Shown piece after piece: positions 1 through 12,567 of a DNA stretch of 12,826 nucleotides. Position 1 is the first letter of the stretch, and each line of letters opens with the position of its first letter. The notes beneath the pieces are model-generated. The model saw only the letters and a list, made by a program, of their open reading frames with translations, had not been told where the DNA came from and did no database searches. The translations under genes were made by a program, and so were the position numbers. Source of the stretch: Candidatus Acidiferrales bacterium. GTDB taxonomy: Bacteria > Acidobacteriota > Terriglobia > Acidiferrales > UBA7541. Location: positions 1 to 12,826 of the forward strand of contig CATPAM010000433.1 of the NCBI GenBank assembly GCA_955651735.1. The letters run 5' to 3'.

Positions 1-381
1 GCCATGAAGAGCCTGCTCCACTACGATTGGCCGGGCAACGTCCGGGAACTGGAGAACTGCGTCGCTCGCGCGGTCACGCTCGGCGATCATCAGATCATCG
101 ATGTAAACGATCTGCCCCCGGCGATCCGAACCGAACAGCCTTCTGCGGCGGCCGCTTCCGCGCAGGACGCCGCATCGCTTTCCACCACCGCGCTCGCCGA
201 AATGGAGCGCATGACCATCCTGCGCGTGTTCGAGCAAGCCAACGGCGACAAAGCGCTGGCCGGCAAAATGTTGGGCATCAGCCGTGCCACGCTTTATCGC
301 AAACTCAAGCGCTACAACATTCCCGTCAAAGCCGGCGCATCGCCCGCAACTCCCGAGCAACAGCGCGCCGCCTCTCACTAG
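1..381 (+). CDS. Sigma-54-dependent response regulator / activator, NtrC family (C-terminal part)
   Basis: Only the last 126 codons are in the window; the gene starts to the left. The visible part begins near the end of the AAA+ sigma-54 interaction domain: WPGNVRELEN, the conserved sensor-2 motif, then a DLPP turn typical of the domain end. After an Ala/Ser-rich linker, a Fis-type helix-turn-helix follows (EMERMTILRVFEQANGDKALAGKMLGIS, ending RATLYRKLKRYNI), which binds enhancer DNA. The family uses ATP hydrolysis to open sigma-54 RNA polymerase promoters from upstream sites. The N-terminal domain, which would tell whether it is a two-component regulator, is not visible. The next gene lies 268 bp downstream and that gap contains sigma-54-like promoter signals, so this protein may control the cluster; that link is inference. 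Family call is firm from the two motifs. Confidence 0.93.
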   Translation, partial: AMKSLLHYDWPGNVRELENCVARAVTLGDHQIIDVNDLPPAIRTEQPSAAAASAQDAASLSTTALAEMERMTILRVFEQANGDKALAGKMLGISRATLYRKLKRYNIPVKAGASPATPEQQRAASH

Positions 382-578: not shown

Positions 579-613
579 TTTCGCAGTGCTAGGTGTGTGC
601 AGGCCCTGCGAAA
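579..613 (+). other. Leader hairpin with 8-bp perfect stem
   Basis: TTTCGCAG (579-586) is the exact reverse complement of CTGCGAAA (606-613). The stem can continue with TGC (587-589) pairing GCA (599-601), leaving GGCC (602-605) as a bulge and a 9-nt loop. No T-run follows, so it does not look like an intrinsic terminator. It lies between the candidate transcription start and the GTG of the PilZ-like gene, so it would be in the mRNA leader. I do not recognise a known riboswitch class in it. Confidence 0.4.
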
Positions 614-638
614 CGAGTGAACCGCCAAGTCGGCAAGC

Positions 639-642
639 GGAG
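639..642 (+). promoter_or_regulatory. Ribosome binding site deciding the GTG start at 650
   Basis: GGAG lies 7 nt before GTG 650, whereas the upstream in-frame ATG at 593 has no such site and lies within the leader hairpin. The GGAG is part of GCGG (637-640), which can pair either with CCGC at 622-625 or with CCGC at 646-649, so access to it may depend on RNA folding. Confidence 0.5.
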
Positions 643-649
643 AAGCCGC

Positions 650-1003
650 GTGAAACGTTCAACCGAAACTACCGTCAGCGAGCACGAGCTGGGTTGCGCG
701 GAGCAGTTGGCGCGCTTTTTCCCGGGCGCCGCTGCCGTTCGCGTCCCCGTGCAGGTGACCGCCCTCCGCGGCGGAAGGGCTAAGCTCCGGGAAGCTACAG
801 TTTTGGAATTTGGCGGTACGCAACACGCAATTTTTCTTTCAACGCTGCCGCTGGAGTTTGAAGACCGTGTGCGGCTGGAACGCGATCCGCACGGAGCCGC
901 AGTGGCTGATGCAACCGTGGTTGCCGTGCAGTATCACGAAGGACGAAAGGCTGTGGCCGTTAAATTCACACAGGGATTGTGCGATTGGGTGATGCAGCCG
1001 TGA
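650..1003 (+). CDS. PilZ-like domain protein, degenerate c-di-GMP motifs
   Basis: A 117-aa protein, chosen from GTG 650 because of a well-spaced GGAG; ATG 593 would add 19 basic residues encoded by a structured leader. The pattern is that of the small beta-barrel PilZ fold seen in many acidobacterial proteins: a V-P-V-Q-V strand, an E-x-T-V-L-E-F segment, L-P-L-E-F-E-D-x-V-x-L, then A-T-V-V-A-V and a closing KAVAVKF strand. PilZ domains usually bind cyclic di-GMP through an RxxxR and a D/NxSxxG motif. Here RAKLR matches RxxxR only by position-poor coincidence and the second motif reads EFGGTQ, so nucleotide binding is doubtful. Its stop overlaps the next gene's GTG (GTGA), suggesting translational coupling. 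The PilZ call rests on pattern alone; a plain conserved hypothetical is the alternative. Confidence 0.6.
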   Translation: MKRSTETTVSEHELGCAEQLARFFPGAAAVRVPVQVTALRGGRAKLREATVLEFGGTQHAIFLSTLPLEFEDRVRLERDPHGAAVADATVVAVQYHEGRKAVAVKFTQGLCDWVMQP

Positions 1004-2448
1004 ACAAAACCACAACGACACTCAACCCAGCGTCGGCACGGCCAGAAGTCTCGCTGCAGGAACAATGGGCGGAGTTCCGCTCGGTCTTCCCGATTTACCT
1101 GGCGCTGGCAAAGGAATTGGAAATCGCCATTCCCTTTCCGCAGGAAACTCGCAACCTGCCAGAGAAACCACCCCTTGAACTCTTCAAGCAAGTGCAAAAT
1201 TGGCTGGATTCGCTCGACTCGCGCGTGCTCGTTCACCAGTTGCGGCATCTGTTGCAGCAAACCACGCTGAACGCTAGCGAGAGCGGTCTCCGTGCGCTGA
1301 TTCAGCGGCACCTCCGTAAACCATCCAAAACGAACATCGACCGCGACAAAATTGACTTCCTGCTCGTTCAGTATTTCGCGTTGTGCGCGCCTGCGAAAAT
1401 CTACCATAAGCAAATCGAACTGGAAGATACGGCCGCGGTTATGAAGCCGGTCCTCGGCGAAACGGATACCACTCCGCTCTCTTGGTGCGAGCCGTTGGAG
1501 AAAATGATCACCGGCTTGCGTGGGTTCCGCAGCCTTCGCGACATGCTGAAGACGAATTTCATAGCCGAAGGCCGCAAAGTAAAGGAGGCCGCTGGTGGAA
1601 TGTTTTACGACTCTTCGGCTCTCATTTCATTCATTCGCTTCAACTTTTTGCTGCGCCGCACGCTGATCGAACTGATGCACGCTGACCTTATCGCCATTCG
1701 CACCGGGTTACAGCAGCTTGAAGCCGCGGGCACCCGCACCCTCGATTGCCGCCAATCGGGCTTTGCGGCTTCGGAGCCGGTTGCCAAAATCAGGCAATTC
1801 GCCGATGAATGGAAGCAGCCGTTTCAAAAGGACTACACGGAGCGTGCCGTCAACGAAACATTCGACAAATTGCTGAATCTACGCACCGCTGTGGAGAAAT
1901 CGCTCCAGCAGGTGGCTGCGAAGTCCGGCGCCCCTGCCGCTTCCCGCGCTCCCGCACCCGCCGCCAAATCTGCAGCGCCGCCACCTGAAGTTGCTGCAAA
2001 GCAGGCTAAGGTGCCGGAGCCAGCCACGGAACCGGAGCCTGATCCCGGCCTCGACTTTGAGACTTGCCTCGAGCAGATCTGGGAACAGCTCATTGCCACG
2101 CCTCCGATGCGCGGACGCTCAATGACCACCGTGAAAATCGGCCGCGCGCGCATCCTGATGTCCTCGTGGGAAGTCACTGCGTTTGTCAGCGAGGACAGTT
2201 CGGCCGCCGACGATTTGCGCCGCGCGGTGGTGGCTCGCGCCATGCTTACCGCCGCGATCGAGGCTGCCAAGGAAACGGGTAACGCCACGGGACTCGATCG
2301 CGCCCTCTCCGTCGCTCGCGTGGAGGTTTCGCGATTGCAAGAGCGCGTCGATGTAGCCAAGCAAGCTAAGGACACCGAAGCAGCGGTGAACCTGGGCATC
2401 AGCACCAAGCGCTTGCTTTCGGCGCTGGATGAAGCGGAAAAGTTGTAA
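1000..2448 (+). CDS. Conserved-looking helical protein of unknown function with Pro/Ala linker
   Basis: I do not recognise this 482-aa protein. The start is taken as GTG 1000, which overlaps the previous stop as GTGA; GTG 979, 7 codons upstream in frame, is possible. Residues 1 to about 306 look mainly alpha-helical and soluble, with many Leu/Arg/Glu heptad-like stretches and no signal peptide or membrane segment. Residues about 307-348 form a linker rich in Pro, Ala and Lys/Glu. Residues about 349-482 form a second module: a short strand-like part (TTVKIGRARILMSSWEVTAF) then long helices up to the C-terminal LLSALDEAEKL. Two globular modules joined by a flexible linker suit an adaptor or scaffold. 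Its place between a PilZ-like gene and a DHp protein, next to a chemosensory operon, suggests a signalling role, but this is inference. Codon use and length leave little doubt that it is a real gene. Confidence 0.85.
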   Translation: MNKTTTTLNPASARPEVSLQEQWAEFRSVFPIYLALAKELEIAIPFPQETRNLPEKPPLELFKQVQNWLDSLDSRVLVHQLRHLLQQTTLNASESGLRALIQRHLRKPSKTNIDRDKIDFLLVQYFALCAPAKIYHKQIELEDTAAVMKPVLGETDTTPLSWCEPLEKMITGLRGFRSLRDMLKTNFIAEGRKVKEAAGGMFYDSSALISFIRFNFLLRRTLIELMHADLIAIRTGLQQLEAAGTRTLDCRQSGFAASEPVAKIRQFADEWKQPFQKDYTERAVNETFDKLLNLRTAVEKSLQQVAAKSGAPAASRAPAPAAKSAAPPPEVAAKQAKVPEPATEPEPDPGLDFETCLEQIWEQLIATPPMRGRSMTTVKIGRARILMSSWEVTAFVSEDSSAADDLRRAVVARAMLTAAIEAAKETGNATGLDRALSVARVEVSRLQERVDVAKQAKDTEAAVNLGISTKRLLSALDEAEKL

Positions 2449-2504
2449 CGAGTACTGCGGCGGAACGCGGTCGCCGAAAAATCTTTCCGGGGAGCGGGCC
2501 ACTT

Positions 2505-3188
2505 TTGCGAAGCGCAAGCGTATTGATCCTGACTGATGAAACTGATTTCGCACGCCTGCTGACCGCGTGCTGGCAAGCGGAAAAGCATGCGCCGGGGATC
2601 ACCGTGCTGGGCAGCGATCTCTGGAAAGATCATGAGGCGGTGCCGCACGATCTCGTCGTGGTGGGGCCGCTGCGCGACGGCAAACTCTCGGAAATCCTGC
2701 GTTCGCTCGAGCCGGCCACCGCTTTGATACTTTGCGCTCCGGCGGACTCCCGCGAACTCAACCACCTTCGCGGCAAATATCCGCGGCTAGTGCACGTGCC
2801 GTTGCGCGAGGATTGGACGCAAACGCTCTTGCTCGTAGCCGGCGAGTCGTTGCGCCGCACCGAAGCTTTGCGCGTCGCACGCCAAGCCGAGAGCAAGGCG
2901 TCGCGCAACGAACAATACGCCACACTCGGCCGCTACATGACGGACATGAAGCACAGCGTCAACAACGCCCTTACCTCCATGATTGGCAACGCGGAACTGC
3001 TGCTGCTCGAACCCGGCCAGCTATCGAAGCAGTCCCTGGCGCAGATCAAAACCATTCACAGCATGGCCCTACGCATCAACGAAATCATGCAGCGATTCTC
3101 ATCGCTGGCCAGCGAGATGAAGGACGCTGAGAATGCATCTCAAGCTGAGACGGAAGAGGCCCCGGCGATCCCTTCCCGCCGCCGCTGA
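2505..3188 (+). CDS. Pseudo-receiver plus orphan histidine-kinase DHp domain, no ATPase domain
   Basis: A 227-aa protein starting at TTG 2505 with GGGGAG (2489-2494) 10 nt upstream. Residues 5-115 follow a receiver-like beta/alpha rhythm (VLILTD, DLVVVGP, ALILCAP, LVHVPL), but the phospho-acceptor position appears to be Gly54 and the acidic pair is not intact. A linker helix (about 115-137) leads into a two-helix DHp-like domain at about 138-206: LGRYMTDMKHSVNNALTSMI resembles the kinase H-box, with His150 at the phospho-site, and a second helix (QIKTIHSMALRINEIMQRF) follows. The usual H-E-x-N-x-P is H-S-V-N-N-A: the Glu next to His and the Pro are lost. The protein ends soon after, without any HATPase domain. 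It may be a phosphotransfer or docking protein, in the way ChpT or Spo0B use DHp folds, or an unphosphorylated dimeric adaptor. Gene reality is firm, function is inferred. Confidence 0.8.
   Translation: MRSASVLILTDETDFARLLTACWQAEKHAPGITVLGSDLWKDHEAVPHDLVVVGPLRDGKLSEILRSLEPATALILCAPADSRELNHLRGKYPRLVHVPLREDWTQTLLLVAGESLRRTEALRVARQAESKASRNEQYATLGRYMTDMKHSVNNALTSMIGNAELLLLEPGQLSKQSLAQIKTIHSMALRINEIMQRFSSLASEMKDAENASQAETEEAPAIPSRRR
3128..3151. repeat. TGAGA/TCTCA cluster upstream of the second promoter-like site
   Basis: TGAGA (3128-3132), TCTCA (3138-3142) and TGAGAC (3146-3151) stand within 24 bp, forming two short overlapping inverted repeats. GCTGAGAC at 3144-3151 is identical to the pair at 429-436 and 450-457. 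The cluster is inside the 3' end of the preceding gene and 118-141 bp upstream of the -24/-12-like sequence at 3269. A shared activator site is possible; chance is not excluded. Confidence 0.25.
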
Positions 3189-3268
3189 CGCTGCTTAGAA
3201 ACGCCGTAAGCCCTTCATTCGAGAGGCTATATATCACACCGACACCGCAGCGCTCAACGTCGACGGGC

Positions 3269-3284
3269 TGGCCGCTGACGTGCA
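3269..3284 (+). promoter_or_regulatory. Candidate sigma-54 (-24/-12) promoter for the cheY-led chemosensory operon
   Basis: TGGCCGCTGACGTGCA has the GG-N10-GC spacing of sigma-54 promoters and shares GACGTGCA at the same place with the site at 540-555. The implied transcription start, near 3295, would leave a leader of about 27 nt before GTG 3322 with its GGGGAG. It sits in the 133-bp gap 3189-3321, which otherwise holds an AT-rich CTATATATC at 3227-3235 that could be a weak sigma-70 -10 element without a convincing -35. Confidence 0.35.
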
Positions 3285-3306
3285 CCTCTGCTCTGCGGAG
3301 AACTCT

Positions 3307-3312
3307 GGGGAG
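3307..3312 (+). promoter_or_regulatory. Ribosome binding site deciding the GTG start of cheY at 3322
   Basis: GGGGAG lies 9 nt before GTG 3322. The longer in-frame GTG at 3280 falls within the candidate -12 element and would add 14 residues before the first receiver strand, so 3322 is preferred. Confidence 0.65.
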
Positions 3313-3321
3313 AAGTCTGCC

Positions 3322-3684
3322 GTGCAGAAAAAGGTCCTGATCGTTGACGATTCGCCGGCGCAGGTGAAGCTGATTCAGGGGCTACTCGAACCTGAAGGCT
3401 ACCCTTCCGTCGGTCTCAACGATCCCAGACGCATCGAGGAAACCATCACGGCGGAGCGCCCCTGCATGATCTTGCTGGACGTAGTGATGCCAGAGCGCAA
3501 CGGGTTTCAGATTTGCCGCGAACTGAAGAGCAGCACGGAGTTCAATGCCATCCCGGTGATCCTGGTGACCTCGAAAGACACCGTCAGCGATCGCTACTGG
3601 GGCGAGCAACAAGGCGCGGACGGTTACGTCACAAAGCCTTTCACGCGCGAGGAACTGCTGCGCGCGGTACGCAGGTTTGCATGA
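3322..3684 (+). CDS. CheY-like response regulator (PilH/PilG type)
   Basis: A 120-aa single receiver domain. All key residues are present: acidic pair D9-D10, phospho-acceptor D53 in LLDVVMPERNG, switch T83, aromatic Y102 and K105 in YVTKPF. The segment DRYWGEQQGADGYVTKPF recalls PilH of the Pil-Chp system, where the loop reads DKVWGKRQGA. It should accept phosphate from the CheA encoded downstream and act on a motor or a regulator not in this window. The start at GTG 3322 gives the usual family length and has a good ribosome site. It is 24 bp upstream of a cheW gene and likely the first gene of the main operon. Receiver identity is certain; the PilH-type assignment is by resemblance. Confidence 0.92.
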   Translation: MQKKVLIVDDSPAQVKLIQGLLEPEGYPSVGLNDPRRIEETITAERPCMILLDVVMPERNGFQICRELKSSTEFNAIPVILVTSKDTVSDRYWGEQQGADGYVTKPFTREELLRAVRRFA

Positions 3685-3708
3685 GAGTGAAGACGGAACA
3701 ACGAACCG

Positions 3709-4236
3709 ATGAATGAAGATTTTCATCTGACGCCGCTGTCCGCCGACGCGGACTCCGCCGACCTGCTCGAGGCGCTCGGCCCGATGGAAGACCGTCCGCC
3801 GGAATCGCAGTACTGCGTGTTCCGCAGCGGACGTGAACGCTTTTGCCTTCCGGTTCTCGACGTCGAGGAAGTTCTGGAATGGCCGGTGCTGACCAAGCTA
3901 CCCCTCGCGCCCGCGTACTTGGTGGGAATTTTCAATCTGCGCGGCATTATCGTACCGCTGATCGACATCGCCATGACCGAAGGCCGCAGGCCCGGGCTTC
4001 TGCCGAAACACGTGGTCGTGGCTTCGCTGCGCGGCGAGGGTCAGCACGACGACGTGCGCATCGGAATCGCCTCCGATGAAGTTATCGGCACCTACAGCGT
4101 CACATCCGAGGATTTGTTGGAGCAGGCGCCGGAAAATGTGCCGCACTGCATCGGCATGCTGCGCCACGACGACCGGCTGGCTTTGGTGATCGATTTGAGG
4201 AGATTGCTCGAGGTATTCCCGGGCCCCAGTATTTGA
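3709..4236 (+). CDS. cheW: CheW-type coupling protein (first copy)
   Basis: A 175-aa protein with one CheW domain at about residues 34-168, preceded by an acidic N-terminal extension of about 33 residues. The domain opens with [23 protein letters not shown] and carries the conserved core [15 protein letters not shown], whose Arg-Gly is the receptor-contact loop in the family. It closes with [19 protein letters not shown]. CheW bridges chemoreceptors and CheA in the signalling array in the cytoplasm. A modest ACGGAA 10 nt upstream supports ATG 3709. Of the three CheW-like proteins in this cluster it is the most canonical and stands directly before the receptor gene, so it is the likely partner of that MCP. 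Confidence 0.9.
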
Positions 4237-5793: not shown

Positions 5794-6678
5794 ATGAGCG
5801 AACGCCAGGGACCGGTGGGCGGTCTGAGCGAACACGAATTGAGCGAGATCCGCATGCTGATTGAAGAGCGGACCGGCATCTGTTTCGACGAATCGCGCGA
5901 GCGCTTCTTCTCCACCCGCGTGCGCGAACACCTGCGCGCGAAGAAGTTCGCGCACGGCACGGATTTGCTGCGCGCGATGCGTAAGACCAACGTCGAATAT
6001 GAAGCCTTGCTCGAGCGGCTCCTGACTCAGGAGACTTCGTTTTTCCGCTACCCTGCGGTGTACGAAACGTTCGAGAAGCGAGTGCTCCCGGAATTGCATG
6101 TGAAAAAGTTCTGGAAAAATCCGCGAACGCTGCGCGTGTGGAGTGCCGGATGCTCCACCGGCGAAGAGCCTTACTCCATCGCCATCACCATCGCCGATGC
6201 CCTTTCCTTCGCCGATGCGTGGAATGTCGAGATTTTGGCCACCGACGTAGGCCGTCAAGCGCTCAAGCACGCTGAGCGCGGCGTCTACTCTGGCCGCTGC
6301 CTCGCCAGCGTCACCCAAACGCAACTCGCCGCGCACTTCAACCCCGTCGAAGGCGGCCACCAGGTTAAGCCGCGTCTGAAGAAAATGGTTACTTTCGCGC
6401 AAATGAATCTTGCCTCCGCGGTCTATGTCGGGCGCATGGACCTGATTTTCTGCATGAACGTGCTGATCTATTTCTCGGAAGAGCGCCGCCGCAATTTGGT
6501 GCAACGCTTCTACGACTCGCTTGAACCAGGTGGCTATCTGTTTCTCGGCCACTCCGAGTCCATCTCCAAGATGCCGGTGAAGTTTCAAGCCATCGTGCTC
6601 AACGATTGCATTCTGTACCGCAAGCCGACCGCCGAGGAATTGCAGAAGTCCGAACTCGTCACGGAGGGACGCGCGTGA
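5794..6678 (+). CDS. cheR: CheR, chemoreceptor glutamate methyltransferase
   Basis: A 294-aa protein of normal family length. The N-terminal helical domain begins at LSEHELSEIRMLIEERTGI, and the SAM-dependent methyltransferase domain follows. Visible motifs are ETSFFRYP (substrate-side Arg), WSAGCSTGEEPYSIA (SAM-binding loop), EILATDV, FCMNVLIYF and GGYLFLGHSES. It transfers methyl from S-adenosylmethionine to receptor glutamates to adapt signalling, opposed by CheB in this operon. No extra TPR or other C-terminal domain is present. ATG 5794 gives the expected N-terminus; its ribosome site is weak (GGAG far upstream, or GGGA very close). The stop overlaps the GTG of cheA, so the two are probably translationally coupled. 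Confidence 0.96.
   Translation: MSERQGPVGGLSEHELSEIRMLIEERTGICFDESRERFFSTRVREHLRAKKFAHGTDLLRAMRKTNVEYEALLERLLTQETSFFRYPAVYETFEKRVLPELHVKKFWKNPRTLRVWSAGCSTGEEPYSIAITIADALSFADAWNVEILATDVGRQALKHAERGVYSGRCLASVTQTQLAAHFNPVEGGHQVKPRLKKMVTFAQMNLASAVYVGRMDLIFCMNVLIYFSEERRRNLVQRFYDSLEPGGYLFLGHSESISKMPVKFQAIVLNDCILYRKPTAEELQKSELVTEGRA
6663..6668 (+). promoter_or_regulatory. Ribosome binding site deciding the GTG start of cheA at 6675
   Basis: GGAGGG lies 6 nt before GTG 6675, an optimal spacing. ATG 6681, two codons later, would be 12 nt away. GTG 6675 also overlaps the cheR stop as GTGA. Confidence 0.65.
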
Positions 6679-9635
6679 GCATGCCCGACCGCGAAGCCGT
6701 CGAACTTTTCCTCCAGGAAGCCTCGGAGCGCCTGCAGTACTTGCGGGAATACGTCAGCGTGCTTCAGGAAGTCGAGCCGCGGCGCGAAGATCTCGAACGC
6801 CTCTACATCGCGGCACACAATTTGACCGGCACTTCGGCAAGCTACGGTTACCCTCGATTCTCGGAAGTTTCCGCAAAATTAGCGCACGTTTTCCAATATG
6901 CGCTGAATGCCACGCTGGGCGAAGACTTGCACGGCCCGCTTACCGAATTCCTCTCCGACGGAATTTCCGTCCTCGAAACCGATTTGCTGGAGATTAGCGA
7001 TACCGGCGAAGAGAGCGTAGAAGACATCGTCGCTTTCAAGGAACGCTACCGTTTTGCCTTCCCAGCCGAGCCGGCGCCCCTCAACTACGGGCAGCAGCGC
7101 ATTACCGAGCAGGCCATCGAGCAGTATGCGCAGGAAGCTCACGAGGAGGAATCCACTGGCTCCTATTTCGACGCGCTGCCCGCCGACGACGAGGTCCCCG
7201 ACGAAATTCTCGAATTTTTCCAGCCGGAAGCCGACGAACATCTGCAAGTCGTCAGCGACTGCTTGATCTCTCTGGAAGGCAACAACAATCCCGAAGAGGT
7301 CAATCGCCTCTTCCGCGCGATTCACACCGTAAAGGGTTCCGCCGCGCAAGTTGGCTTGAAGCGCCTCGGCGGCATCGCGCACCGCGTGGAAGATTTGATC
7401 GGCCGTCTTCGCGACGGTGAAATCGAACCATCTGCCGACGTCGTCGACCTTTGCCTCGCTTCCGTCGACGTCTTGAAAAAGACTTTGCATCACCAGTGGA
7501 CCGATGAATCCGCAATGCGCGCCGAGGTCGATTCCCTGCTCGGCCGCATCGCCGAATTCGCGCCGCCCGAGGAAGAAGAACTCCAAGCCAAGCAATCCGT
7601 CGTGGAGGAAGCGAAGGCTGCGGCAAGTGCCGCGCAAGCACCTGCCATGACACGCAAGCCCGGCAAGCATCCTGCCGGTGCCGCCGCAAAATCCGTGCGC
7701 ATCGCGCTGGAACGCCTCGATCGCATGATGAACACGGTCGGCGAGTTGGTCATCAACCGCACCCGCATGGTCGGCCGCGTCGCCGAACTGGAAAAACTCG
7801 TGGACACCCTGGGCTTCTCCAAGGAGCGGTTGCAGGGCAAGGTTTCCGAGTTCCAGGAAAAATACGAATTCAATCGCATCAGCAATTCGCGCGCACCCGC
7901 GCGCTGGAACCCCAACACCACGCCGCAGCGCCTCACCAGCGCCGCCGCCGGCGATACCTCCTTCTGGTCCGACTTCAGTGAACTGGAAATGGACCGCTAC
8001 GACGACTTCAACATTCTTTCGCGCTCTATGGCGGAAATTTCCGCCGACGTCAACGAAGTTCTGGCTCAGCTCGAAGGTTTCATCGGACGCGTCGAGGGCG
8101 ACATCGATGAGTTCACTAAACTCGCCCATCACTTGCAGGACGAATTCACCGCCGCGCGCATGGTGCCCATCGGCACGCTCTATTCTCGGCTTTCACGAGC
8201 TGTGCGCGACGCCGCTACCTCCGCCGCCAAACAGGTCGAACTCGATCTCACCGGCAGCGAAACCGAGCTGGACAACAACATCATCCAGCAAATCTCCGAT
8301 CCGCTCGTCCACCTAGTGCGCAATTCCGTCGCTCATGGAATCGAGCACGCCGACGTCCGCCGCGCCGCCGGAAAGTCCGAAGCCGGCAAAGTTTCTCTCC
8401 GCGCTTACCATCGCGGCAATCACATTTATATCGAAGTCGAAGACGACGGCGGCGGCATCGATTACGATCGCGTGAAGCAGAGCGCCATCGAGCGCGGCCT
8501 GGTCTCGCCCGAGACCGCGGACCGCCTCACCGATCGCGATTTCCGCGAGATGCTCTTCCATCCCGGCTTTTCCACCGCACCCGCGAAGACGGAACTCGCC
8601 GGCCGCGGCGTCGGCCTGGACGTCGTGCGCGCCAATCTCAATGTGCTGAACGGCGAAATTGACATCCAAAGCACGCGCGGCCAGGGAACCAAGTTCACGC
8701 TGAAAGTTCCGCTGACCCTGATCATCTCCCCCGCGCTGTTCGTGCGCTGCGGCGGCACCAGCTTCGCGCTTCCGCTCGCCGTGGTCGAGGAAATCCGCCG
8801 ACTCCGCGCCGACGAAATCGAAGACGTTGGCGGCAAGCTGCTCACCAAGGTTCGCGACGTGGTCACCGAAGTTATCCGCTTGGATTCCTATCTCGGCCTG
8901 CCACCGCTCGAGCCCATCAACGGCTACTTCCGCATGGTCGTGGCCAACGCCGGTAGTCGCCAGATCGGCTTGGTCGTCGAGGAAGTCCTCGGCAAAGATG
9001 AAATCGTCATCAAGAATCTCGGCGAGTACTTGCGCCGCGTCAAGCTCTTCCCTGGCACAACTATCGCACCGGACGGCAGCTTGATTCTTCTGATCGACTT
9101 GAATCGTATGGTGGCCACCGAACCCAGTGAGCGCCGCACCTTGCAAGCTACGCCTACCGCCGCGCGCATCTTCGCTCCGGGCTCCGCGGCAGTCGCTCGC
9201 GGCACCATTCCCGCCGAGGCCATCGACCGTGTCGAGCACGAGCGCGTCATCGTCGTCGCCGACGACTCCATCAGCGTCCGCAAATTCGTCGGCCGCATGC
9301 TCGAGAAGAACGGCTATCGCGTGCAGCTGGCCGCCGACGGCCTGGAGGCCGCCGAACTCGTCGCGCAACACGGCTGCCACCTGGTTATCACTGATCTCGA
9401 GATGCCGCGCATGACCGGCTACGAACTCATGGTGCAATTGCGTCAAAGCCCCACGACGCGCCGCATCCCCGTCATGGTCGTCACCTCGCGCGCTGGTGCA
9501 AAGCATCGCGATCGCGCCATAAAGGAAGGCGCCGCCGCTTTCCTGACCAAGCCCGTCCAGGAAGATCAATTGCTCGCTGCGATCGAACAACTCATAGGAA
9601 CGGAGGCGACGCGCCCGGTTGTTCCGGTGGCGTAG
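6675..9635 (+). CDS. cheA: Hybrid CheA histidine kinase with two Hpt domains and a C-terminal receiver (ChpA/PilL type)
   Basis: A 986-aa sensor kinase. Order: Hpt1 at about 5-110 with His48 (AAHNLTGTS, where the usual Lys of HxLKG is Thr); Hpt2 at about 175-285 with His217 (AIHTVKGSAAQVGL); an Ala-rich linker; a dimerisation domain from about 335 (RLDRMMNTVGELVINRTRM, later FSELEMDRYDDFNILSRSMAE, a ChpA-like feature); the HATPase domain with N-box HLVRNSVAHG (Asn550), DDGGGID and GRGVGLDVV; a CheW-like regulatory domain (LIISPALFVRCGGTSFALPL onward); and a receiver at about 857-975 with ADD, Asp907 in ITDLEMPRMTG and Lys959 in TKP. It should autophosphorylate under MCP/CheW control and pass phosphate to its own receiver, CheB and the CheY proteins. 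ChpA itself has more Hpt-like domains, so this is a shorter relative. Start GTG 6675 overlaps cheR. Confidence 0.96.
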   Translation: MSMPDREAVELFLQEASERLQYLREYVSVLQEVEPRREDLERLYIAAHNLTGTSASYGYPRFSEVSAKLAHVFQYALNATLGEDLHGPLTEFLSDGISVLETDLLEISDTGEESVEDIVAFKERYRFAFPAEPAPLNYGQQRITEQAIEQYAQEAHEEESTGSYFDALPADDEVPDEILEFFQPEADEHLQVVSDCLISLEGNNNPEEVNRLFRAIHTVKGSAAQVGLKRLGGIAHRVEDLIGRLRDGEIEPSADVVDLCLASVDVLKKTLHHQWTDESAMRAEVDSLLGRIAEFAPPEEEELQAKQSVVEEAKAAASAAQAPAMTRKPGKHPAGAAAKSVRIALERLDRMMNTVGELVINRTRMVGRVAELEKLVDTLGFSKERLQGKVSEFQEKYEFNRISNSRAPARWNPNTTPQRLTSAAAGDTSFWSDFSELEMDRYDDFNILSRSMAEISADVNEVLAQLEGFIGRVEGDIDEFTKLAHHLQDEFTAARMVPIGTLYSRLSRAVRDAATSAAKQVELDLTGSETELDNNIIQQISDPLVHLVRNSVAHGIEHADVRRAAGKSEAGKVSLRAYHRGNHIYIEVEDDGGGIDYDRVKQSAIERGLVSPETADRLTDRDFREMLFHPGFSTAPAKTELAGRGVGLDVVRANLNVLNGEIDIQSTRGQGTKFTLKVPLTLIISPALFVRCGGTSFALPLAVVEEIRRLRADEIEDVGGKLLTKVRDVVTEVIRLDSYLGLPPLEPINGYFRMVVANAGSRQIGLVVEEVLGKDEIVIKNLGEYLRRVKLFPGTTIAPDGSLILLIDLNRMVATEPSERRTLQATPTAARIFAPGSAAVARGTIPAEAIDRVEHERVIVVADDSISVRKFVGRMLEKNGYRVQLAADGLEAAELVAQHGCHLVITDLEMPRMTGYELMVQLRQSPTTRRIPVMVVTSRAGAKHRDRAIKEGAAAFLTKPVQEDQLLAAIEQLIGTEATRPVVPVA

Positions 9636-11327: not shown

Positions 11328-11803
11328 CTCTGATCGCCGAAACCGACCTGCAATCTTTCGTCCTGCTACGGCTGGGCGACCGCCGTTTTGCGGTTGCCGC
11401 CAATCAAATTGCAGAGCTTGTCACGCCGAGCCGCATCTTCCGTTTCCCGCACCACACCAGCGAAGTCGAAGGCGTGATCCTCCGCCGCGGCCGTATTGTG
11501 CCCGTCTGCGACGTTGCGGAGAAACTCATCGGCAAGGGTTTGAAGTCGCGCCGCTTCTATCTGATCGCCCAGCGCTGCTATGGCCCGCAGACCGAGTGGG
11601 TCGCGCTCCCGGTCACCGGAGATTGCGAGCTCATCAACGCCGAGATGACTTTGCCCAGCGATTCCGACGCACCGCACGTTTCTGGCTGGCTTTCGCACGC
11701 CGGCGACGTCATCGAAGTGCTCAACCTTGCCGCCTTGACCCCCGGCCCCAGCGGCATGGCGCCCGTAGCCGCGCCTCCTCAGCCTCTGGAGGCCCGGCCA
11801 TGA
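11324..11803 (+). CDS. cheW: CheW-type protein (third copy)
   Basis: A 159-aa single-domain CheW-like protein. ATG 11324 overlaps the preceding stop as ATGA. The domain spans nearly the whole chain: FVLLRLGDRRFAVAANQIAELV, then the core GVILRRGRIVPVCDVAEKL, which keeps the Arg-Gly, Pro and Asp of the family with Arg for Leu. A loop then gives EWVALPVTGDCELINAEMTL, and GDVIEVLNLAAL ends the fold. The Pro/Ala-rich C-terminal tail is short. It should join receptors to CheA like the first CheW; its separate place after cheB suggests another array or partner. Its stop overlaps the next gene's ATG. Confidence 0.88.
   Translation: MTLIAETDLQSFVLLRLGDRRFAVAANQIAELVTPSRIFRFPHHTSEVEGVILRRGRIVPVCDVAEKLIGKGLKSRRFYLIAQRCYGPQTEWVALPVTGDCELINAEMTLPSDSDAPHVSGWLSHAGDVIEVLNLAALTPGPSGMAPVAAPPQPLEARP
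11788..11792 (+). promoter_or_regulatory. Strong ribosome binding site for the REC-PATAN gene
   Basis: GGAGG lies 7 nt before ATG 11800, inside the end of the third cheW gene. It fixes the start of the next gene well downstream of the other in-frame codons. Confidence 0.7.
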
Positions 11804-12567
11804 TTCCCAACGGGCGCCCCGCAAAGATTTTGCTCATCGACAGCAACGTCTATTTTGCCAAGAAGCTCGGCGATGCTCTCAAACGCGAAGGCTTTGAGGT
11901 GATTTCCAGCACGCAGGCGGCGTTTGCGCTAACCACCCTGGAGTACGACGCTCCAACCGCCATCGTCTGCGCCACCAACATGCGCGAAATGGGCGCGCTC
12001 GAAATCGCCAAGATCATTCACGCCGACCCGAAGAATTCAGCCCTGCCGGTGATTGCCCTGGGCGACGGGAGCCAACGCGCCTTGATGGAGGCATTTCAAG
12101 CCGGCTGCGACGATTACATCGATCGCCGCCGCACTCCGGCGATTATCGCTACGCACGTGCGCAATATCGTCACCAGCAAAGCAGAAGGCTTTCAGCCCAC
12201 GCAGATGCTCGCGCAGGCCGACACCAGCCTCAGCGGCAGCCTCACCCACACCGACCTTCCCGGCGTGTTGCAGATGCTCACCCACGCGCATCAGACCGGC
12301 GCGCTGCACATCAACGCCGCGAACGCCGACGCCGTGCTCTTCTTCGATGCCGGCGAAATCCGTCACGCCGAATGTGGCAGTCTCTTCGGCGACGAAGCCG
12401 TTGTGCACATCGTCAAAAACGTGCACGGCAACGGCGTCTACAAGTTTGTCTACGGAAGCACTTCACCGCAGCATACGGTGCTGCGCAATGCCACGGATCT
12501 CATGCTCGATGCCATGCGCGAATTCGACGAAGGCGCTCGCGACATGGCGGATAAGGAAGCGCTATGA
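11800..12567 (+). CDS. Pseudo-receiver fused to a PATAN (DUF4388) domain
   Basis: A 255-aa protein starting at ATG 11800, overlapping the previous stop as ATGA. Residues 9-125 have the receiver fold pattern, but every phosphorylation residue is changed: the acidic pair reads D14-S15, the acceptor Asp is Ala58 (in CATNM), the switch Thr is Gly88 and the conserved Lys is Arg109 (in YIDRR). Residues about 144-245 match the PATAN/DUF4388 family: LSGSLTHTDLPGVLQML, TGALHI, VLFFDAGEIRHAECG, FGDEAVVHIV, GVYKFVYG, and a final helix with AMREFDEGARD. PATAN proteins of response-regulator type, as in the cyanobacterial phototaxis proteins PatA and PixG-like regulators, pass chemosensory signals to type IV pilus motors or gene expression. 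Here the signal cannot come through Asp phosphorylation of this receiver, so protein binding is likelier. Domain calls are good, role is inferred. Confidence 0.87.
   Translation: MIPNGRPAKILLIDSNVYFAKKLGDALKREGFEVISSTQAAFALTTLEYDAPTAIVCATNMREMGALEIAKIIHADPKNSALPVIALGDGSQRALMEAFQAGCDDYIDRRRTPAIIATHVRNIVTSKAEGFQPTQMLAQADTSLSGSLTHTDLPGVLQMLTHAHQTGALHINAANADAVLFFDAGEIRHAECGSLFGDEAVVHIVKNVHGNGVYKFVYGSTSPQHTVLRNATDLMLDAMREFDEGARDMADKEAL

Follow-up and report, generated by a model that had tools for sequence, protein, structure and literature searches.

A pseudo-receiver and DHp protein without an ATPase domain beside an acidobacterial chemosensory cluster: a candidate receiver-docking pseudo-kinase

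What might a protein do that carries the DHp hairpin of a histidine kinase but no ATPase domain, behind a receiver-like fold with no acceptor Asp, next to a cluster of chemosensory genes? The question is raised by a stretch of DNA of 12,826 nucleotides (the window) from a Candidatus Acidiferrales bacterium whose genome sequence amounts to 3.26 Mb on 577 contigs and is 73% complete. On the plus strand the window encodes, in order, the end of a sigma-54 response regulator, a short protein, a 489-aa protein, the 227-aa protein of interest, CheY, CheW, MCP, CheR, CheA, CheB, two CheW-like proteins and a receiver-DUF4388 protein. The regulator (4..381) is cut by the window edge, and Pfam recognizes the AAA lid and Fis-type HTH in its remaining C-terminal end; a full-length relative at another locus (L036) has receiver and sigma-54 domains. 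The short conserved protein (593..1003), a frequent upstream neighbour, has no Pfam match; 'PilZ-like', a label for positions 593-1000, was a guess to which Pfam gives no support. The conserved 489-aa protein (979..2448) belongs to no known family, as Pfam gives nothing above cut-off for it and NCBIfam no match at all; it is predicted to be mostly helical at middling confidence (pLDDT 76), and its model has no match in the PDB at E<=0.001. Further downstream lie a CheY-like receiver with acceptor Asp and Lys (3322..3684; Pfam, on a frame from 3280), a CheA with two Hpt domains and a C-terminal receiver (6681..9635; Pfam, in a frame of 6606-9635 whose ATG at 6681 was taken as the start) and, closing the che cluster, the receiver-DUF4388 protein (11596-12567; Pfam). 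A promoter and terminator scan of positions 800-3800 yielded nothing above shuffled sequences.

The 227-aa protein is encoded at 2505..3188 on the plus strand. Its N-terminal part has a receiver-like fold (residues 5-97; 2517..2795) with Gly54 at the acceptor place (codon 2664-2666). In the predicted structure this is followed by a linker helix and DHp hairpin (residues 104-168 and 175-217; 2814..3155), and the monomer model includes both DHp helices. Pfam HisKA (PF00512) covers residues 142-202 with 28.2 bits against a cut-off of 26.9, and matches 52 of 53 family members at E<=0.1. The H-box reads HSVNNAL, with His150 (codon CAC, 2952..2954) and with Asn154 at H+4. No HATPase_c match to the protein was found in Pfam at E<=1, and this domain is absent from the families matched by the 53 members; of a Rec-DHp-CA order, the Rec fold and the DHp were found by Pfam and predicted fold, and the CA domain was not. 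All of this bears out the sequence-only reading, which had described a receiver-like domain with Gly54, a DHp hairpin with His150, a missing ATPase domain and an H-box altered to HSVN. In searches of solved structures, the single sequence found no match at E<=1, and a profile returned a de novo designed protein (E 0.00029), an acetyltransferase (0.08) and kinase chains (1.4-1.5). The best matches among open PMC papers included no literature on this family. Outside any domain, residues 212-217 form a tail motif, SQAETE, which is alike in many members of the window's family and weaker in the sister family.

Could it be the remnant of a larger kinase? A frameshifted kinase, with a cryptic ATPase domain in a neighbouring protein, had been considered alongside the sequence-only reading and is rejected: of 28 genus loci translated, with the start chosen nearest the query's start, 27 give a protein of 227 aa and the other (L020) one of 226, and among the scanned window genes CheA alone has an ATPase domain. 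Decay of a kinase gene into a fragment is highly improbable as well. It would agree with the missing ATPase domain and with the gene's absence from some genomes, but the gene gives a match free of internal stops in 36 of 36 genus genomes (its own included), and residues remain invariant across two families. The gene belongs to a conserved family.

In what follows, f1 is the window's family, g1 its genus, f2 the sister family and G000 the window's genome. The gene is found in 58 of 89 f1 genomes, as a single match in 56 of the 58. A profile search of a draw from the class found it in 79 of 399 genomes (58 f1 and 21 f2), with internal stops reported for G374 and G375 only; a single-sequence search of a draw from the phylum found it in 5 of 297. 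Among the records found, those nearest to the window come from Candidatus Acidiferrum and other Acidobacteria, and many of them bear the label gp2. One record (L011) carries the title Betaproteobacteria bacterium yet has the same gene cluster; at the protein level, 10 of the 11 genes matched there share 64-90% identity with those of the window, which suggests a mistaken label or binning.

Residue 150 differs between lineages of the family. Three protein searches returned 5572, 4801 and 3813 relatives at E<=0.001, and the best 120 from each were used; 406 rows less 6 identical ones left 400, and 17 further distinct members brought the relatives to 417. Residue 150 is His in 284 of these, Pro in 131, Asn in one and Ser in one, a ratio of His to Pro that describes three top-120 lists round three queries plus loci and is not a population frequency. 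By list, it is His in 120/120 of the window clade, Pro in 119/119 of a second clade and His in 120/120 of a third; the 41 other loci have His in 28, Pro in 12 and Asn in one. The tree was built from 58 of 63 genome loci, leaving out four duplicates and the fragment L111 (also Pro); for the f2 carriers, 20 of 21 loci were read, G579 being left out. In this set residue 150 is His in 44, Pro in 12, Asn in one and Ser in one, and His is kept in 23 of 24 g1 and 19 of 20 f2 members. The single members with Asn and Ser are L054 (G325) and L094 (G537), the latter also with Asp at the receiver acceptor place but without the acid pair. The tree separates f1 from f2 and recovers g1 and g177 each as one group; it requires at least four changes at residue 150, or two for His versus Pro alone. 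Several clear independent losses of His were not upheld, as Pro forming one clade is not rejected (p-AU 0.445). A synonymous-codon test of constraint on His150 was uninformative in g1, where the codon is CAC in 23/23. Conservation of His150, a point on which the sequence-only reading had staked itself, largely holds within the genus and gives way in the Pro-bearing sister clade and in the two single members.

The surroundings of residue 150 are more constant than the residue itself: among 227 positions ranked by entropy, H150 comes 62nd and N154 28th, and the segment round the H-box (N153, N154, L156, T157, S158, G161, N162) ranks with the best-conserved parts of the protein. H+1 is acidic in 0/417 relatives and H+5 is Pro in 0/417, and H+4 is Asn in 387, Asp in 29 and Ser in one. 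The 119 rows of the Pro clade have N153, L156, T157, G161 and N162 throughout, S158 in 118, and at position 154 Asn in 94 and Asp in 25. Two g168 members have the His, with SD in place of NN. L156, T157, G161, M187 and E204 are invariant in 58/58 members of the tree set. The pseudo-receiver has Asp at place 54 in 1/417 relatives and Lys at place 98, a place set from the model, in 1/58; Trp23 is present in 58/58 and Trp104 in 55/58, which suggests a possible binding surface.

How closely is the protein tied to the neighbouring CheA? Every f1 carrier (58/58) has the large CheA, and none of the 25 f1 genomes without this CheA has the gene. Here CheA counts rest on the best 9 candidates scored per genome and on 65 matches, from which G341, a 43% partial match to another CheA, was dropped. 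Six f1 genomes have the CheA with no match to the gene; at three of them (L108, L109, L110) CheY comes next after the 489-aa gene, the 227-aa gene being missing from its place. Eight of the 21 f2 carriers have the CheA and 13 have only other CheAs, at 34-46% identity. Absences are less sure in f1 than in f2, because many f1 genomes are incomplete and the 13 f2 carriers without this CheA are all at least 97% complete. An obligatory partnership with CheA is rejected for f2, for all its constancy in f1: the CheA at 6681..9635 is a neighbour, not an obligatory partner. Of the tie to CheA that the sequence-only reading had drawn, the two-Hpt CheA and its company in f1 stand; its generality does not, given f2 and the three CheA-bearing loci without the gene.

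Two other neighbours are more constant. Both the 489-aa gene and the sigma-54 regulator are found in 16 of 20 fetched f2 loci, and the former is also frequent in f1 loci and stays even where the che cluster is gone. At the 12 fetched f2 loci without the large CheA, the 489-aa gene lies beside in 9 and the sigma-54 regulator in 10 (that of L037 in the adjoining L058), and 11 retain His150. Downstream in such f2 loci, on the other strand, uvrB was seen in L036, L037, L038, L093, L095, L096, L099 and L107. Phospho-sites are intact where matched, and wherever CheY and CheA occur this holds for the His clades as well as for the Pro clade: CheY D53 and K105 in 46/46, both Hpt His in 38/38 and the CheA receiver Asp in 32/32. 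Matches below 48% identity were dropped from this count, which leaves two g173 loci without a CheY match; in one of them, L044, CheW adjoins the gene.

All 7 of the 7 genomes looked at (L055, L056, L057, L058, L059, L060, L061) have a second CheA on the opposite strand, 10-21 kb upstream at a position that is conserved and within a shared gene cluster; this operon has a 670-aa gene that we presume to be an MCP ('MCP2'). A CheX match lies near the second CheA in 5/5 genomes searched of these seven. G000 has its sole CheX match on the contig of its second CheA and none in the window. CheX matches were found in 10/10 and CheC matches in 9/10 genomes searched, so a need for a phosphatase is not proven, and an argument from a 'missing phosphatase' was dropped.

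The window's genome provides a control. On contig C569 it encodes a receiver-like and DHp protein of 223 aa, again without CA (L003:1114-1785; also L144:3188-3859), directly after a 941-aa hybrid-kinase frame whose end, by inspection, reads as an ATPase and a receiver domain. Profile comparison of this paralogue with the window family gives a probability of 98.9 over 189 columns at 22% identity (residues 2-200 against 5-213). Its box is the canonical HEMNNPL. A match to it occurs in 60 of 89 family genomes at E<=1e-15, in some over the DHp part only, and its 30 best-matching loci all have the His, Glu at H+1, Asn at H+4 and Pro at H+5; H+3 is Ser in one. Loss of the motif is thus particular to the window family at the sampling depth used. 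The paralogue itself is a candidate phosphotransferase.

Which known systems does the family resemble? LvrB, a Rec-DHp-CA kinase, has D56 and H161, whereas the window protein lacks the CA domain and the receiver acceptor Asp; ChpT and Spo0B keep a second, CA-like domain. ChpT, Spo0B and PhyT derive from histidine kinases by degeneration and retain the DHp part (PMC3433190, PMC5898713), as the window protein does; they keep the acceptor His, which is not family-wide here, and the window family has no CA-like domain. DivL likewise has a DHp fold in which, as in one lineage here, the acceptor His is replaced; it reads a phosphorylated receiver with no need of kinase activity (PMC4211667). DivL differs in its PAS and CA domains and in its Tyr at the site, a non-phosphorylatable residue where the window has His and the sister clade Pro; the window family lacks CA and has a pseudo-receiver in front. 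The ShkA hybrid kinase also has a receiver fold without acceptor, which binds its HisKA domain (PMC12632262); the window protein has its pseudo-receiver at the N-terminus and no kinase left.

A parallel to the altered H-box is CrdS, whose target is an NtrC-type regulator with ties to a chemosensory system (PMC3510030); the neighbourhood in the window is of a similar kind. In the H-E/D-x-x-T/N motif the acid serves the kinase and T/N the phosphatase reaction; in CrdS the H+1 acid is needed for kinase only and the H+4 Asn for phosphatase only, and CrdS H371A retains most of its phosphatase (CrdA~P half-life 2.6 min, against 0.7 in wild type and 53.5 with no kinase; PMC3510030). The window family likewise keeps the H+4 Asn with a kinase residue dispensable, but differs from CrdS in lacking the CA domain, the acidic H+1 and the H+5 Pro. 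P376A (H+5) cost CrdS much of its phosphatase, and PleC H610A lost phosphatase too (PMC3510030). HK853 without CA reportedly shows phosphatase activity in vitro at pH 8, although CA with nucleotide boosts it in HK853 and EnvZ (PMC7005713), and truncated ChrS without a working CA acts without its His, with phosphatase seemingly lost and heterodimers suggested as the route (PMC9491836). Among 76,471 sampled HisKA domains 722 lack the His, and loss is commoner in HisKA than in HisKA_3 (PMC12632262), a trend contrary to that expected if the role were in general that of a phosphatase.

Our preferred explanation, to which we give an even chance, is a receiver-docking pseudo-kinase acting as a kinase-dead phosphatase or as a DivL-like reader. 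The protein has the Rec-DHp order of a Rec-DHp-CA kinase minus the ATPase domain; the DHp would dimerize, and its helix-1 face would dock the phosphorylated receiver of a neighbouring regulator, either CheY or the sigma-54 response regulator, which shares with the 489-aa protein the place of most constant neighbour. Docking might drain phosphate, as in a kinase-dead HisKA phosphatase using Asn154, or might read it as DivL does, with the state handed on by way of the pseudo-receiver, and perhaps of the 489-aa neighbour as well. A heterodimer route as in truncated ChrS could occur with a kinase of the locus. The loss of the H+1 acid with retention of the H+4 Asn counts for docking, by analogy with the division of roles in CrdS. 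The replacement of His150 in a clade whose CheY and CheA sites are intact, the canonical box of the paralogue, the five invariant DHp residues, the f2 carriers without the large CheA and the absence of a CheX match from the window count on the same side. The total lack of Pro at H+5 speaks against a strong phosphatase, because CrdS P376A lost much activity, and the Asp that replaces Asn154 in some relatives counts against a phosphatase too, as do the PleC and ChrS results and the boost that CA with nucleotide gives in HK853 and EnvZ. Against a dispensable His stands its near-constancy in g1 and f2, and against independence from CheA its strict company in f1.

A His-dependent phosphotransferase of the Spo0B/ChpT/PhyT kind, working in the His150 lineages including the window's and turned non-catalytic in the Pro clade, would account for the retained His. 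It may have no need of the H+1 acid, which PMC3510030 suggests serves autophosphorylation, and a paralogue whose H-box retains H, E, N and P directly follows a hybrid-kinase frame. Yet the Pro-clade loci have the same neighbours, with the CheA and CheY sites intact, and nearly all f2 loci without the large CheA still have the His, so that this CheA is not the donor there; we consider such a phosphotransferase unlikely. A structural adaptor, in which the DHp is a dimerization device only and the pseudo-receiver binds another partner or ligand with no contact to a phospho-receiver, is possible, if rather doubtful. The two conserved Trp would fit a working surface on the pseudo-receiver and the 489-aa protein is a frequent neighbour, but conservation of the H-box segment appears to exceed the needs of dimerization alone. 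The sequence-only reading had offered a shuttle, a sink or a docking protein. Shuttle and sink would both need His150, and since this is Pro throughout the sister clade, Asn in one other member and Ser in another, neither is supported as a function of the family; the docking protein remains. An obligatory phosphate carrier does not fit the Pro clade, and a receiver-binding DHp dimer fits all of the data considered here.

Pseudo-kinases and pseudo-receivers have each been described on their own, but little is settled about how they work, and the mechanisms of bacterial pseudo-receivers are said to remain a mystery (PMC12632262). The 227-aa family joins both defects in one protein. We tentatively propose, as somewhat less probable than its opposite, that this doubly pseudo acidobacterial family is a stand-alone phosphatase or phospho-reader for receivers that evolved beside its CA-less paralogue with full H-box, so that one cell would contain two versions of the fold, a carrier and a non-carrier adaptor. 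With a His clade, a Pro clade and the canonical paralogue as control, the family offers a way to test whether an isolated DHp hairpin, lacking both ATPase domain and His, regulates receivers. In these soil Acidobacteria, the protein probably docks to signalling proteins and does not take part in a phosphate relay.
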